32,658 bases of DNA. It comes from Candidatus Methanovorans sp. (GTDB lineage Archaea; Halobacteriota; Methanosarcinia; Methanosarcinales; Methanosarcinaceae). Each line of letters begins with the position of its first letter. The first letter of the stretch is position 1. The notes under the pieces were generated by a model that saw nothing but the letters and a program-made list of their open reading frames with translations, was not told where the DNA came from and did no database searches. Location of the stretch: positions 1 through 32,658 of the forward strand of contig DQIP01000219.1 of NCBI GenBank assembly GCA_020793565.1. Direction: 5' to 3'. Positions 5,640-26,641 of this stretch are shown in pieces. The position numbers were made by a program, and so were the translations under genes.

Positions 5640-5671
5640 ATGTGCGTGCTCATTCAATTTAAAATATATTG

Positions 5672-6322
5672 TTATGTGAAACCCCAGCTCACAGCAGCGA
5701 TTATCAACCCAATGATAACACCCACACCAATATTTCTCAAATCCAGCAACCTACTTTCTTTCTTCTTTTTAGAATCATATTCTGCAAGTGCATCTACACT
5801 ATCTTTTATTTTTTGTCTGATATCACTTAAATCTTTTACAATTTGAGTGTATTCAGACAGAGCATCATTATTTATAGAAGCTATGTCTTTTCCGGCCCGG
5901 AGTGCTGTAATACGTCTTTCATATTGAGGAAGCGCAGGTCTTATTTCTTTGTAATAAGTTGGCAAAACCTCTTTAATGGCTTCATGAGAAAAGGATCTCA
6001 AATCTTCTTTAACGTCCTGTGTTATGTTTATACTCAACCAGTCCAGAGCATCATAACATGCTCTATAGATATGACCAAGTGCTTTGTCTAATGTTTTGAT
6101 CGAGTAATCATCGGCCAGTTTTTCAGTTATTTCCAATTTATCAGCTAAAACCCGATTGAAATGATCGTAGGCATTTTTCAGTTCATTAATAATTTGTGGG
6201 AATGTATAACTATCAGGATCTATGATTTCGTTATAGATCAACAGTTCTTTGACAAAAATATACAACTCAACTGTCTCTCTAATCTTTGCTGTTTCCTGCT
6301 CATTGAACGAAATGGTATTCAT
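5672..6322 (-). CDS. Tail-anchored helical protein of unknown function
   Basis: This 216-aa protein starts at ATG. Residues 1-185 are predicted to be almost entirely helical and charged, with coiled-coil-like stretches around 140-185 (IVKDLSDIRQKIKDSVDALAEYDSKKKKE). A single C-terminal transmembrane segment (~195-214, IGVGVIIGLIIAAVSWGF) would anchor it with the bulk in the cytoplasm. I do not recognise the family and see no catalytic motif. It lies 34 bases downstream of another small unknown gene on the same strand, so the two may be co-transcribed. It is convergent with the ABC operon. Codon use and coherent amphipathic helices support a real gene. Confidence 0.65.
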   Translation of the reverse strand: MNTISFNEQETAKIRETVELYIFVKELLIYNEIIDPDSYTFPQIINELKNAYDHFNRVLADKLEITEKLADDYSIKTLDKALGHIYRACYDALDWLSINITQDVKEDLRSFSHEAIKEVLPTYYKEIRPALPQYERRITALRAGKDIASINNDALSEYTQIVKDLSDIRQKIKDSVDALAEYDSKKKKESRLLDLRNIGVGVIIGLIIAAVSWGFT

Positions 6323-6356
6323 GTTGTATCTTTAAAATCGATATAGCTAACAACGT

Positions 6357-6566
6357 TCAAGGCAAAGGTTCTTTGAAGATTTTCTTTTTTCTGACTTCAA
6401 ACTCTTCTTCAGTGTAATATTTCCCGCTGGAGAGTCGTACACTACCCCTATGTCTTAATGAGAATTTCTTTACCTGTTCTCGATCAATCCGCATGGGGCC
6501 AAAATTAGCCTCTACAATGTTCCGATCTTTCACAAAAATGCCACTTTTCGGGAGTTTTAATACCAA
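6357..6566 (-). CDS. Small basic protein of unknown function
   Basis: This 69-aa protein (…FGPMRIDREQVKKFSLRHRGSVRLSSGKYYTEEEFE…) is rich in Lys and Arg and probably forms a compact alpha/beta fold. The predicted start is a TTG at 6564-6566. This is supported by GGTGAG placed five bases upstream, a strong archaeal Shine-Dalgarno match; no better ATG is available except an internal one at 6494. It sits just upstream of the tail-anchored protein gene on the same strand. I do not recognise the family. It could be a small nucleic-acid-binding protein by charge, but that is only a guess. Confidence 0.55.
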   Translation of the reverse strand: MVLKLPKSGIFVKDRNIVEANFGPMRIDREQVKKFSLRHRGSVRLSSGKYYTEEEFEVRKKKIFKEPLP

Positions 6567-6730
6567 TTATCTCACCTTAATTACATATCTTAAATCAATT
6601 CAAAATTATATATGTTTTCCGCTTGCCACTCATAACTTACTCAGGCCAGTGATAGGCTGCAAATGTATAAAGTTCTTTTAGAAGCTCAGATGTGGATTTG
6701 ATCTTATTACCCGGGAGCAGCATGACTCGT

Positions 6731-6955
6731 TCATGAAAACACTGGTTGACAGTAAAGGAAAACAGCCGATGAACTAACAAGAACCGAGAAGCAGCAAAAA
6801 AACAAAGCACACATGCCCCCATCTAAAATCACAAACTCCACGCCGGGTAACCCACATCAAATAAATCTAATCTCCGACCTCAACGAAGAAAAACATCTCG
6901 AATTCGCAGGCATGTGCGGTTGAGCATGATGGGGCAATGCATGGGGGGCGACAAA
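6731..6955. repeat. Direct repeat B, copy 1 (upstream of repeat-flanked ATPase)
   Basis: This copy runs from TTCATGAAAA to just past CGGTTGAGCATGATGGGGCA. It matches 8506-8735 in the same orientation, with strong identity in CACGCCGGGT, ACCCACATCAAATAAATCTA and CATGTGCGGTTGAGCATGAT. The left part is more diverged. The surrounding 6567-7024 stretch holds no gene I can support. Confidence 0.75.
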
Positions 6956-7024
6956 TATGCGACCTCTGCGGTTATTTTTTTGCATGACTGTTTGTTCCAA
7001 CTGCCCACGGCCTGATATAATCAT

Positions 7025-8416
7025 TCATTTCATCTTTTTCAATAATTCTGCCAGATCCCATCCTTCGATCTTATTATCATCCATGAAATCTTTGGCACTC
7101 TTTGTAAATCCTGCTTTTGACATCATCAGGAATTGTTCCTCTCGTTCATCGTTGTACCAGTCTACAAGAATGCGCTTATCCAGCAATTTTTTGATATCCT
7201 TTACCCCAAGAGGCCTGCTGTTCCATTTTACCTCGCCCAGAAGTACCCTGTAAGGCTTTTCTCCGATTACTGCAATATCGATCTCATCGCCCCTGCGGTT
7301 CCACCACGCACCCATCTTTACCGGTGAAAAAGGCAGGTTATCAAACACTATATCTCTTGCAATTTGTTCAAAAACAGGGCCTATAAAGGATGAAAGTGAC
7401 GTTTTTATCCTGTCAAAAACCATGTCATACTTGCCTGATTCAGTAAAAGACATATTTGGATTTATAAATCTGAACCAGAAATGCACCATCTGGTCTTTTA
7501 TTGCATATCTTCCCATTTTCGTTCCTTTTATAATGGGCGCTCTGCGTTCGAGAATCTCATAAGTGTTCACAAGGTCATACAGGTAACGGCTGAGACTCTT
7601 CATTTCGATACCTGTTGTATCGGATATCTCTTTTAGTGTGCCCTTGCCGAACGATACTGCTTCGAGTATGGAAAAATATGTTGTGTAGTTGTTCCCGAAT
7701 TCGCTTATCAGTATTTGCTTTACTTCATCTTTTAAAATGGCATTCTCACTTAAGATGAGAGTTCTTATCACATCTTCGTAGGCGGTAAGTCCGTAGTCCT
7801 CGATCAATTGGTAATATCTGGGAACGCCTCCAAAGGTTGCATAGAGTGCAATAATTTCTTCTTCATCCGTAAATCCCAGATCCCGACAAATCGTTCTGAT
7901 ATATTTATATGAAAGGGGTTTTAGGTCAATACGTGAAGTCGCCCTGCCGTAGAGTGGTTCTTTTGCGTTTATGAATATCTTTTTCATAAGTCCAATATAT
8001 GATCCTACAAAGACCAACAATATTGGAGTATCAACATGATACATGTCCCAGTATTTCTGGAATATGGAAAAGATCGCAGGGTCAACATATGTGAAGTTCT
8101 GGAATTCATCGAATACGATCTTGAGATGATTTTCTTTTGAATATTCGAACAGGAATCTCACAAGATCGTCCCAGTTTGAGAATTCGGGTACAAACCCGCT
8201 CAATTCGGTTTTTAATATATCGGAATATTCCCGAAGAAGCAGTGAACTTGTTTTCTTGTCTACAAAAAAGTAGATGGAATTCATTGATTCAATTATAAGC
8301 CTGGTTTTGCCCACGCGCCGTCTGCCAAACATCACAAGCATGTGAGCATGCTTTTCACTGAGTTGCTCAAGGTTTCTGATCGCCTGTAGTTCGTTTGTTC
8401 GGTTTTGAAATTCCAT
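7025..8416 (-). CDS. Archaeal AAA ATPase with DUF234 nuclease-like C-terminus
   Basis: This ATPase of about 463 aa is of the archaeal ATP_bin/PF01637 family. A P-loop GRRRVGKTRL lies near residue 31 and a Walker B LKIVFDEFQNF near 98. The STAND/Cdc6-like middle region has a winged-helix segment (~245-285). The C-terminal DUF234 part carries EIDIAVIGEKPYRVLLGEVKW, matching the E/D-x-D...E-x-K spacing of a PD-(D/E)xK nuclease fold. The ORF track starts at a TTG; the ATG at 8414-8416 is preferred, with a TATACTATAAAAT box close upstream suggesting a short leader. Such ATPases are multicopy, often mobile and of unknown role in archaea. Here the gene is enclosed by two direct ~225-bp repeats, which suggests it arrived or duplicated with them. 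Confidence 0.85.
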   Translation of the reverse strand: MEFQNRTNELQAIRNLEQLSEKHAHMLVMFGRRRVGKTRLIIESMNSIYFFVDKKTSSLLLREYSDILKTELSGFVPEFSNWDDLVRFLFEYSKENHLKIVFDEFQNFTYVDPAIFSIFQKYWDMYHVDTPILLVFVGSYIGLMKKIFINAKEPLYGRATSRIDLKPLSYKYIRTICRDLGFTDEEEIIALYATFGGVPRYYQLIEDYGLTAYEDVIRTLILSENAILKDEVKQILISEFGNNYTTYFSILEAVSFGKGTLKEISDTTGIEMKSLSRYLYDLVNTYEILERRAPIIKGTKMGRYAIKDQMVHFWFRFINPNMSFTESGKYDMVFDRIKTSLSSFIGPVFEQIARDIVFDNLPFSPVKMGAWWNRRGDEIDIAVIGEKPYRVLLGEVKWNSRPLGVKDIKKLLDKRILVDWYNDEREEQFLMMSKAGFTKSAKDFMDDNKIEGWDLAELLKKMK

Positions 8417-8505
8417 AGTATGCAATTCTATTTTATAGTATAATACTGTTTTGTAGAATTATACTCTGATGTGATCTGCCCCAACGCCACAATTTCAACT
8501 TTCTA

Positions 8506-8735
8506 TTTTCATGAAAAACTGGCTAACAGGAAAGGAAAAACGACCGATCAACTAACAAGATCGGTGCGGAACAGGGGCATAGGGTACATGCCGGTATCTA
8601 AAATTGATGAATCCACGCCGGGTGACCCACATCAAATAAATCTAATCCCCGACCTACCTCACCGAAAAAAAACATCTCAAACTCACAGCATGTGCGGTTG
8701 AGCATGATGGGGCAATGCATGGGAAGCCACCATCA
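8506..8735. repeat. Direct repeat B, copy 2
   Basis: This is the second copy of the repeat at 6731-6955, in the same orientation, starting about 90 bases upstream of the ATPase start codon. The ORF-track frame 8471-8701 across it is not convincingly conserved in copy 1, because indels shift the frame, so I treat it as non-coding. Confidence 0.75.
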
Positions 8736-8760
8736 TGCAAACTCACTATGGATGAACGTG

Positions 8761-9720
8761 TTAGGAAGACAACAAGGATTTTAACTCCTCACGGATTTCA
8801 ACAGGTATATACGCGACCTTGAACTTTCTATCACCGAATACCATTTTTCCAACAACCATCAATCCTTTCTGCCTGAGCATGCCAATTGTGGATACGGTTT
8901 TTTCCCCCTCCCAGAAGAAATCCATGTCATCATCGTAGTTTTTAAGCTTACCATATTTCACAACGCCACCCTGCTCAACACAAAGAGCTAGCGCTTCCTT
9001 AGACTTTTCCGGTAATTTTAAGATGATCGGAGGCAGGTCATTTACAATTTTATCGTCAATCCTCCGGACTTTATCCTTTTTAAGCCCCCCTTTCAAGTCA
9101 TAATGCGTACACATCCAATCAATCCAATGAGCCGGATATTTATTTAAGATTGACTTTAGAGAAGAACTTCGGCGTAATGGAATGCTTTCAATCTTCTTAA
9201 GTTTGTCATTTTCATAGGCACCAAAAAGAACATCAGGATCCAGTATAAGTGGAGATGTAGACATTTGATAGACACCAGAAAAACGGTAATGGTTGCCGGA
9301 TGGATGAATTCTACCAGTTATCGCAGAGTTTGGAGATATGGGTGTTGGAGCATGTAATTTTACGTTATAAACATCACCGCTTTTTCTATCTTTGATCTTT
9401 AAAAACAAACCCTTTTTTGAAATGACGATGAAATTTGAGCGGAGAACATTTTTCATCTGTAGAACATTCTTTTCCATTTCAGGACTCAATTCAGGAGTGT
9501 TTTCCGCAAATTCCTCTGCTATGGTCTTGCCTGTTTTGGGAAGTACTTTTTCAAAAAAAAGCCATGCAAGGAAATTATTCCGCCATATCTCATCAGGCAT
9601 TTCCACGTCTTTTTCGGGAAATTCATCAACATACCGATCGAACAGTTCCTGTGATTGGTTGCCATACTTATCATTTGCATATTCAAAAATTGCCTGGTTT
9701 ACGTTCTCTTCGTCAATCAT
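8761..9720 (-). CDS. Hypothetical protein with a winged-helix-like C-terminus
   Basis: This protein is about 319 aa. The N-terminal third is acidic and helical, with a striking IWRNNFLAWLFFEKVLP...GKTIAEEFAE segment that recalls SEC-C/UPF0149-associated proteins of archaea. The centre (~100-160) is beta-rich and contains ITGRIHPSGNHYRFSG. The last 80 residues (KEALALCVEQGGVVKYGKL...STIGMLRQKGLMVVGK...KVAYIPVEIREEL) look like a winged helix. I do not recognise a characterised family. The GTG at 9729 is the longest start, but ATG 9720 has GTGATT five bases ahead and is preferred. The gene stands alone, just after repeat B, so it belongs to the accessory stretch. Confidence 0.65.
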   Translation of the reverse strand: MIDEENVNQAIFEYANDKYGNQSQELFDRYVDEFPEKDVEMPDEIWRNNFLAWLFFEKVLPKTGKTIAEEFAENTPELSPEMEKNVLQMKNVLRSNFIVISKKGLFLKIKDRKSGDVYNVKLHAPTPISPNSAITGRIHPSGNHYRFSGVYQMSTSPLILDPDVLFGAYENDKLKKIESIPLRRSSSLKSILNKYPAHWIDWMCTHYDLKGGLKKDKVRRIDDKIVNDLPPIILKLPEKSKEALALCVEQGGVVKYGKLKNYDDDMDFFWEGEKTVSTIGMLRQKGLMVVGKMVFGDRKFKVAYIPVEIREELKSLLSS

Positions 9721-9925
9721 ATTAATCACAATGCCCTTTTCGCTAATTAATAGTTCGTTGATTTCTAAAAGAAATCAAGACAAAACTTAAATTCAACTTT
9801 TAAATTGGAAAAACGCTGTTATCATCTCGATTCTTCATGTAAATATATCGATATAAATGTGTTTAACCATCTTCAAATGTCTTGCTGCGCTATTATATGT
9901 TGCTACATTACTGTAATTTAATCAA

Positions 9926-19559: not shown

Positions 19560-19828
19560 GGTTGTCATTCCTGTTTGCGTATCTATTCATCCAATTCACC
19601 ATGATAAATGATGATAATTGGATACAATACTCATATATTTCTCAACAAGAATAGCACAAAATCATACTAATAAAAGACATGTAGGATTAGTTCAGGTGTG
19701 TTTTCCCTGATATTTATGGGGAAGTGTCCATTCTTCGTAAGTTAATCTTAATCGTTATACCTCATATCCCTGCTGCGGTTGGAACAAGATATGGTCAATG
19801 CAAGCTCAGTAGTCTGAGATATGACAAT
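19560..19828. other. Gene-free spacer
   Basis: No gene or RNA was recognised between the coiled-coil gene and the IS200/IS605-like end. The AT-rich part at 19500-19680 presumably carries the promoter of the smc operon. AATACTATTATTTAAATATATG at about 19520-19545 offers a TATA box (read on the minus strand as CATATATTTAAATAA). Confidence 0.4.
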
Positions 19829-19860
19829 ATCCCACAGCGCTCTGCTGTGGGATTTTCACC
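19775..19860 (+). mobile_element. Possible solo IS200/IS605-type right end (omega-RNA-like 3' segment)
   Basis: ATCCCACAGC-GCTCT-GCTGTGGGAT (19829-19853) is a perfect 10-bp hairpin followed by TTTCACC. This layout resembles the right end of IS200/IS605 and TnpB-only elements, where a hairpin near TTCA(C) also forms the 3' part of the TnpB guide RNA. The preceding ~50 bases (GGTTGGAACAAG...CAGTAGTCTGAGATATGAC) also look like such an end. No tnpA or tnpB gene is left. It could alternatively be an ordinary terminator. Confidence 0.4.
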
Positions 19861-19918
19861 AAACTGAAGGTATAAAATGATACGTTCCCCGGGGTTTTCC
19901 GAATTATTCCAGAAGACG

Positions 19919-20098
19919 AGGAAATCTTCGCTAACTCTCAGATTGACTCGGACTACATAATTCTATAAATTATATACAACGAGGAAATCCCCTGCGGTCG
20001 GATTAACTTGGACTACATAACCTTATGGCTATATAGTACGAGAAATCCTCGATATACTCGAATTGACTCGGACTACATATATAGTGTATATATAGTGT
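19919..20098. repeat. Three tandem copies of 60-bp structured repeat C
   Basis: The core CGGACTACAT recurs at exactly 60-bp spacing (TTGGACTACAT in copy 2; GACTACATAA or GACTACATAT at 19951, 20011 and 20071). Each copy has an AATCY...RGATT-type stem before the core (clear in copies 1 and 2, altered in copy 3) and an AT-rich palindrome after it. Paired substitutions preserve the stems (see findings). Two further single copies lie at 23783-23845 (opposite strand) and 26452-26516. No coding frame is shared. Confidence 0.85.
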
Positions 20099-23782: not shown

Positions 23783-23845
23783 TATAGTATATGATCTATA
23801 AGATTATGTAGTCCGGGTTAATCCGACCGTAGGGAGGATTTTATC
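23783..23845 (-). repeat. Repeat C, single copy between cofG and cofH
   Basis: On the minus strand it reads AAATCCTCCC...GGTCGGATTAACCCGGACTACATAATCTTATAGATCAT, the same order as the tandem copies at 19919-20098. It sits just downstream of the cofG stop. The rest of the 23564-23869 spacer contains a CTTTGCGG-type short motif (rc of 23735-23757) but no supported gene. Confidence 0.8.
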
Positions 23846-23869
23846 GTTCTGTAATACAGCATGTTATGT

Positions 23870-26451: not shown

Positions 26452-26516
26452 CGAGAAAATCTTCGCTGACGCTCCGATTAACTCGGACTACATAATCTTA
26501 TAGATTATATACAACA
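26452..26516 (+). repeat. Repeat C, single copy upstream of moaA
   Basis: Reads AAAATCTTCGCTGACGCTCC, GATTAACTCGGACTACATAA, TCTTATAGATTATATACAA. It is almost the same as tandem copy 1 at 19919, on the same strand. The AT palindrome here is perfect (ATAATCT-TAT-AGATTAT). Confidence 0.85.
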
Positions 26517-26641
26517 AGAAATATATTATCTTTTAAAATTTGAAAAACGATATATGTTGGATCATTAAAACCCCTTTGGTCGATGGGCAATGAATGTAAA
26601 TTAAGATACAAATAATACGATTTGCTCACGCCTACCTTATA

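Follow-up and report, generated by a model that had tools for sequence, protein, structure and literature searches.

Among described systems, the closest to the gene considered here are the archaeal ATPases that combine the Pfam ATPase_2 and DUF234 domains: it shares with them both domains, the Walker A and B motifs, a conserved E-I-D...E-x-K motif and a multi-copy occurrence. The two repeats that flank this gene parallel the degenerate dispersed repeats and pseudogene fragments of archaea and bacteria in being dispersed, decaying, variably truncated, restricted to one genus and free of covarying RNA structure, and the overall arrangement, direct repeats around a single gene, recalls insertion sequences and integrating elements with att-type repeats. 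We studied the locus in a window of 32,658 nucleotides (the whole stretch of DNA analysed), which is contig C90 of G000, an assembly of 2,450,789 bases in 236 contigs; the genus comprises methane-eating, ANME-3-like Methanosarcinaceae and is represented by seven genomes, G000 to G006. Our preferred reading, to which we assign a probability of roughly 0.68, is that two independent layers are superposed here: worn copies of a dispersed repeat flank a gene that belongs to a relocating family of DUF234 ATPases.

Self-comparison of the window places repeat copy A at 6730-6966 and copy B at 8507-8744, both on the plus strand, with 77.7% identity over 242 columns (E about 1e-46), a likeness far beyond chance. 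Each is ~237 bp long, slightly more than the ~225 bp given in the initial annotation, which was right to describe them as direct, same-orientation repeats and to place exactly one gene between them: a single long minus-strand ORF (7025..8425) lies there. Both copies are decayed members of one genus-restricted dispersed repeat. Copy A corresponds to codons 46-117 of a 117-codon frame followed by a 3′ tail of ~45 bp, with one frameshift and an in-frame stop relative to the frame as it stands open in a sister genome; copy B corresponds to codons 55-117 plus the tail, with three frameshifting gaps relative to the same frame. In the repeat tree A and B are each other’s nearest relatives (support 0.97), as a local duplication would give, and local duplication or conversion in the G000 lineage is possible.

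A search of 60 relatives recovered the repeat in five of them, all of the same genus, namely G000 (three copies), G001, G002, G004 and G005; it was absent from G003, G006 and every other genus covered. A protein-level search of 150 relatives returned 21 places, again in these five genomes only. Most of these approximately 21 copies, spread over five of the seven genus genomes, have no ATPase adjoining them, which supplies the solo repeats that the initial annotation had proposed to look for. The copies align to the 3′ half of the 117-codon frame (MIQMTYTCPDCNMTYEVAPKWCGC...IADLTEEEYLEFAGMCG, followed by a stop), which carries a CxxC..CxC motif and is open in two copies only (G001:C27 and G004:C171); nearly all copies are truncated, and most have frameshifts or stops. 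Differences from the open copy fall almost evenly on the three codon positions (209/179/240), and even the two open copies, with 12 differing sites between them and a dN/dS of 0.78, give no clear sign of selection for coding. The frame had no match in Pfam, NCBIfam or PHROG. A real small gene was rejected as the identity of the repeat on account of there being only two open copies, their dN/dS and the near-uniform codon-position differences elsewhere; a structured RNA element was rejected too, with no Rfam match at E<=1 and 0 compensatory pairs in the consensus fold, as was a viral origin, with no relative found among viral contigs. We conclude that the repeat is a decaying, genus-restricted dispersed element, mostly non-coding, with a probable origin in a small gene, the 3′ half of which then spread by copying.

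The copies keep one orientation within each contig and are clustered in few contigs. In G001 and G004 they bracket other genes, e.g., one that by eye is phosphofructokinase-like, and three copies from these genomes (L23d, L22c and L22d) look like exchanged halves of one another, which points to junctions at repeats elsewhere too. The tails of both open copies run into a fragment that by eye resembles the C-terminus of a MacB/FtsX permease; such fragments turn up at scattered points close to repeats and ATPases in several of the genomes (L023 282-457 and 1965-2154; L027 7473-7627; the repeat-copy tails). The window also holds very abundant dispersed repeats of ~60-110 bp (19916-20019, 26452-26521, 19741-19851 and 23783-23847), which have dozens of copies across the genus genomes and at which synteny blocks tend to stop.

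The enclosed ORF encodes, on the minus strand, a protein of 466 aa from a TTG or 463 aa from the ATG at 8416, the latter being the likely start, as in the sister genomes. Its architecture is ATPase_2 (PF01637, 8.4e-15), a winged helix-turn-helix recognized by eye and DUF234 (PF03008, 1.6e-22), with both Pfam matches well above the curated cut-offs. Across 58 DUF234 ATPases of the genus, Walker A (G-R-R-R-x-G-K-T) and Walker B (D106-E107) are intact and essentially invariant, and the residues E381, D383, E398 and K400 of the E-I-D...E-x-K motif are conserved at 98-100%. The DUF234 domain can be predicted from these residues to be a nuclease with a PD-(D/E)XK-like active site, in agreement with the nuclease-like look that the initial annotation had ascribed to the C-terminus. 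With a dN/dS of 0.08-0.10 against the sister genomes, the ATPase, unlike the repeats, is intact and under selection. Most of its length is also covered by a match (1e-39) to PDC-S27, a candidate defence family of PADLOC; defence genes often shift position, and this match allows a mobile defence gene as one reading.

A conserved nuclease-like active site beside a pair of repeats invites the idea, also raised in the initial annotation, that the ATPase-nuclease binds or cuts the repeat, and the proximity of the two in four genomes speaks for it. Against it, none of the other DUF234 genes of the genus, about 60 in number, lies near a copy, DUF234 matches occur also in G003 and G006, which lack the repeat, and the copies decay as neutral sequence does. 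As nothing ties the nuclease to the repeat, we consider this very improbable.

The junctions of the two copies bear on how the flanking pair arose. Copy A has positional counterparts in two other genomes, where window 5651-6921 aligns with G001:C19 at 87% and window 6534-6921 with G002:C280 at 78%; no DUF234 gene was found on either contig. The homology to both stops at 6921, inside copy A, and the 3′ tail of A from which synteny breaks off (6922..6966, plus strand) would be a recombination or insertion junction. G004 has the same junction between copy B and the ATPase (window 7519-8625, 90%), and at the outer edge of B (8731..8760) the gene beyond it, at 8761-9729, has an 86% homologue on contig C201 of G006, a genome without the repeat, the homology stopping at 8731. 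Since A and B thus border rearrangement junctions, the flanking pair probably arose by genome shuffling.

The initial annotation had instead suggested a mobile cassette moved by recombination between the repeats; in such a scheme, a circle of the ATPase and one repeat would be excised and would reintegrate at another copy. The direct orientation, the single gene inside, the sister relation of A and B, the linkage of ATPase and repeat common to G004 and the repeats near the gene in four genomes would all suit such a cassette. However, reintegration predicts that the sequence downstream of A’s counterparts in G001 and G002 should follow copy B, and it was not found there in the window, copy B abutting instead the gene that stands without a repeat in G006; nor was an empty site, with a single repeat joining both outer flanks, met among A’s counterparts and B’s outer neighbour. 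Moreover, repeats with only 78% identity would today undergo homologous recombination inefficiently, and the orthologues of this ATPase in G001 and G005 have no repeat at their edges. The search that the initial annotation had proposed, for further DUF234 ATPase genes bordered by this repeat, likewise gave none among the about 60 others in the genus. We regard a repeat-bounded cassette as improbable.

A further possibility is that the direct repeat was made when the ATPase inserted, as a segmental or target duplication, and has decayed since. Here the sister position of A and B in the tree is to the point, as is the finding that direct flanking repeats of 40-240 bp accompany 10 of 57 ATPase loci versus eight of 143 other ORFs (p = 0.013), a modest excess in which inverted repeats have no part (none at ATPase loci, one at other ORFs). 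On the other hand, A has counterparts at a site without the ATPase and the B-ATPase junction is common to G004, so that A and B have separate histories, and ~240 bp exceeds any usual target-site duplication. We think this unlikely.

Under the two-layer reading, the junction shared with G004 shows that the ATPase already adjoined copy B when G000 and G004 diverged, and the synteny breaks suggest that a rearrangement with its breakpoint in the repeat carried copy A to the far side of the gene; the repeats would then be at most passive homology for rearrangement. Several observations count against this reading: repeats lie within 0.1-2.4 kb of the ATPase in all four genomes that carry it, a clustering that pure accident leaves unexplained unless the neighbourhood was inherited; A and B are sisters in the tree; direct flanking repeats are commoner at ATPase loci than at other ORFs; and in fragmented genomes some of the junctions could be misassemblies. 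The initial annotation had held that copies widespread without any link to such ATPase genes would speak against a connection, and that is mostly, but given these four genomes not wholly, what we see.

The gene itself is found at other addresses. Its orthologues on G001:C27 and G005:C5 lie elsewhere, and homology with the window breaks off at ~7008-7022 on one side and ~8461 on the other, immediately beyond the gene. The unit conserved among the relocated orthologues at 89-91% DNA identity (7022..8461, minus strand) comprises the gene and ~36-80 bp upstream and ends 3-17 bp past the stop codon. On G001:C27 the ATPase sits between pieces of a degraded ftsX, a gene of which G002:C66 and the window have unbroken counterparts; the junctions are ragged. 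At the upstream end of the unit, a 39-bp imperfect palindrome (AATTCTATTTTATAGTATAATACTGTTTTGTAGAATT, 8423..8461) overlaps the presumed ATPase promoter and is conserved in four orthologues. A solo copy of this palindrome occurs beside a repeat copy in G002 (L027, G002:C6, 8089-8127), which has no close orthologue of this ATPase; the edge of this solo copy lies within a few bp of a break in synteny.

We found this behaviour throughout the family. DUF234 ATPase matches number 6-20 per genus genome, G006 excepted, and about 60 of the loci were taken with up to 4 kb on each side. Among the 69 pairs with at least 80% DNA identity (mostly 84-93%) and at least 1 kb of comparable flank, 44 have no shared flank of 200 bp or more, and 25 keep a flank, often for kilobases. 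In 27 pairs examined in detail, most without a shared flank and a few with one further out, homology extends by a median of 39 bp ahead of the start and 4 bp beyond the stop, and in 22 it ends within 10 bp of the stop codon. Ordinary window genes, including those for ScpA/B-SMC and cofactor genes, served as a control and, across these genomes, retain synteny in blocks of 2-6.5 kb at 80-88% identity. The assemblies within the genus are fragmented metagenome-assembled genomes, in which some junctions could be misassemblies; nevertheless, the complete genome of another genus (G009) has two copies 95% identical over 1438 bp with no flanks in common, so the lost flanks are not only an artefact of metagenome assembly. 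No shared termini or target-site duplications emerged across about 60 compared DUF234 edges, and searches with joined flanks for empty sites mostly hit dispersed repeats. What we do find, homologous genes that occupy non-orthologous sites and whose homology gives out at the gene edges, is the mark of a single-gene mobile unit, and from these alignments we infer that the family changes address between species as a gene-sized unit made of a promoter motif (~40-80 bp) and the ORF up to its stop codon. The mobility proposed in the initial annotation survives in this form: members of the ATPase family change place as gene-sized units, and repeats are where rearrangement junctions lie, but the repeats do not delimit a cassette.

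These relocations might also be purely passive, the outcome of ordinary rearrangement in a plastic genome, with homology confined to the gene edges since intergenic DNA is short and fast-evolving. Such an account competes with the mobility layer of our reading and not with the repeat layer. The genus genomes are indeed full of dispersed repeats and gene fragments, and some junctions are ragged: on G000:C181 the gene, which interrupts a segment unbroken in six other genomes, has lost its last ~20 bp, and the C-terminus of its product runs on into the target sequence. Yet ordinary genes at the same divergence keep their neighbours, about a third of the ATPase pairs keep a flank at the same identity as those that do not, the breakpoints pile up next to the stop codon, and the pattern recurs in the complete genome of the other genus. 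We give passive relocation a substantial, if somewhat less than even, chance. If the nuclease takes part, as we infer, nuclease-stimulated copying or insertion would be a plausible route, given the conserved AAA+ and PD-(D/E)XK-like active sites. It is a more doubtful proposition that DUF234 ATPases are autonomous single-gene mobile elements, copying themselves to new sites by means of their AAA+ ATPase and PD-(D/E)XK nuclease, and equally tentative that the self-copying unit would then consist of the gene and a palindromic or tandem-repeat motif at its promoter, with the stop codon as its end.

In many family members the promoter does carry a palindrome or tandem repeat that is specific to the group. 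Upstream palindromes occur in 11 of 27 (41%) as against 17% of 60 controls; with so modest an enrichment, which operators would explain equally well, we rejected them as an element end. Examples of the group-specific motifs, ~60 bp upstream of the DUF234 start, are two ATACTTCAAAGTAT, two ATACTAATTAGTAT and ACTTACTGNNNAGTAAGT, at loci L112 (G001:C4), L122 (G002:C13), L123 (G002:C58), L144 (G003:C258) and L150 (G004:C212); on G003:C258 and G004:C212 the motif recurs directly after the stop codon. A MITE-like inverted repeat, GGGCTTTGTGTATAAAGTC...GACTTTATACACAAAGCCC, which has many copies in the genus, abuts the promoter of one ATPase group at L100 (G000:C232), L126 (G002:C135) and L117 (G001:C43).

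The repeat pair itself is, on our reading, an ordinary product of a plastic genome, but testing it exposed a large DUF234 family in ANME-3-like archaea whose members seem to relocate as gene-sized units, the breakpoints lying at promoter and stop codon. The literature that we searched held no description of mobility for DUF234/ATPase_2 genes. If confirmed in closed genomes, mobility would offer a reason why these ATPase-nucleases have multiplied, so far without explanation, in archaea and in some bacteria, and would give the putative nuclease domain a testable role; autonomous mobility, should it hold, would explain the expansion of the DUF234 ATPases in archaea.

Set against the known systems, the locus departs from each in a distinct way. 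Insertion sequences and integrating elements differ from it in that no transposase or integrase is present here, the repeats do not travel with the gene, and no common terminal inverted repeats or target duplications were found; an insertion sequence was rejected, since the sole enclosed gene is a non-transposase and about 60 copies have no shared termini or duplication. The degenerate dispersed repeats and pseudogene fragments of other archaea and bacteria differ from the copies here, which lie in one orientation per contig and cluster in few contigs. The PDC-S27 match brings likeness to a family that is itself only a candidate for defence. The ATPase_2 and DUF234 proteins remain the nearest relatives, and what sets the present copies apart from them is that they appear to relocate between species as bare gene units.
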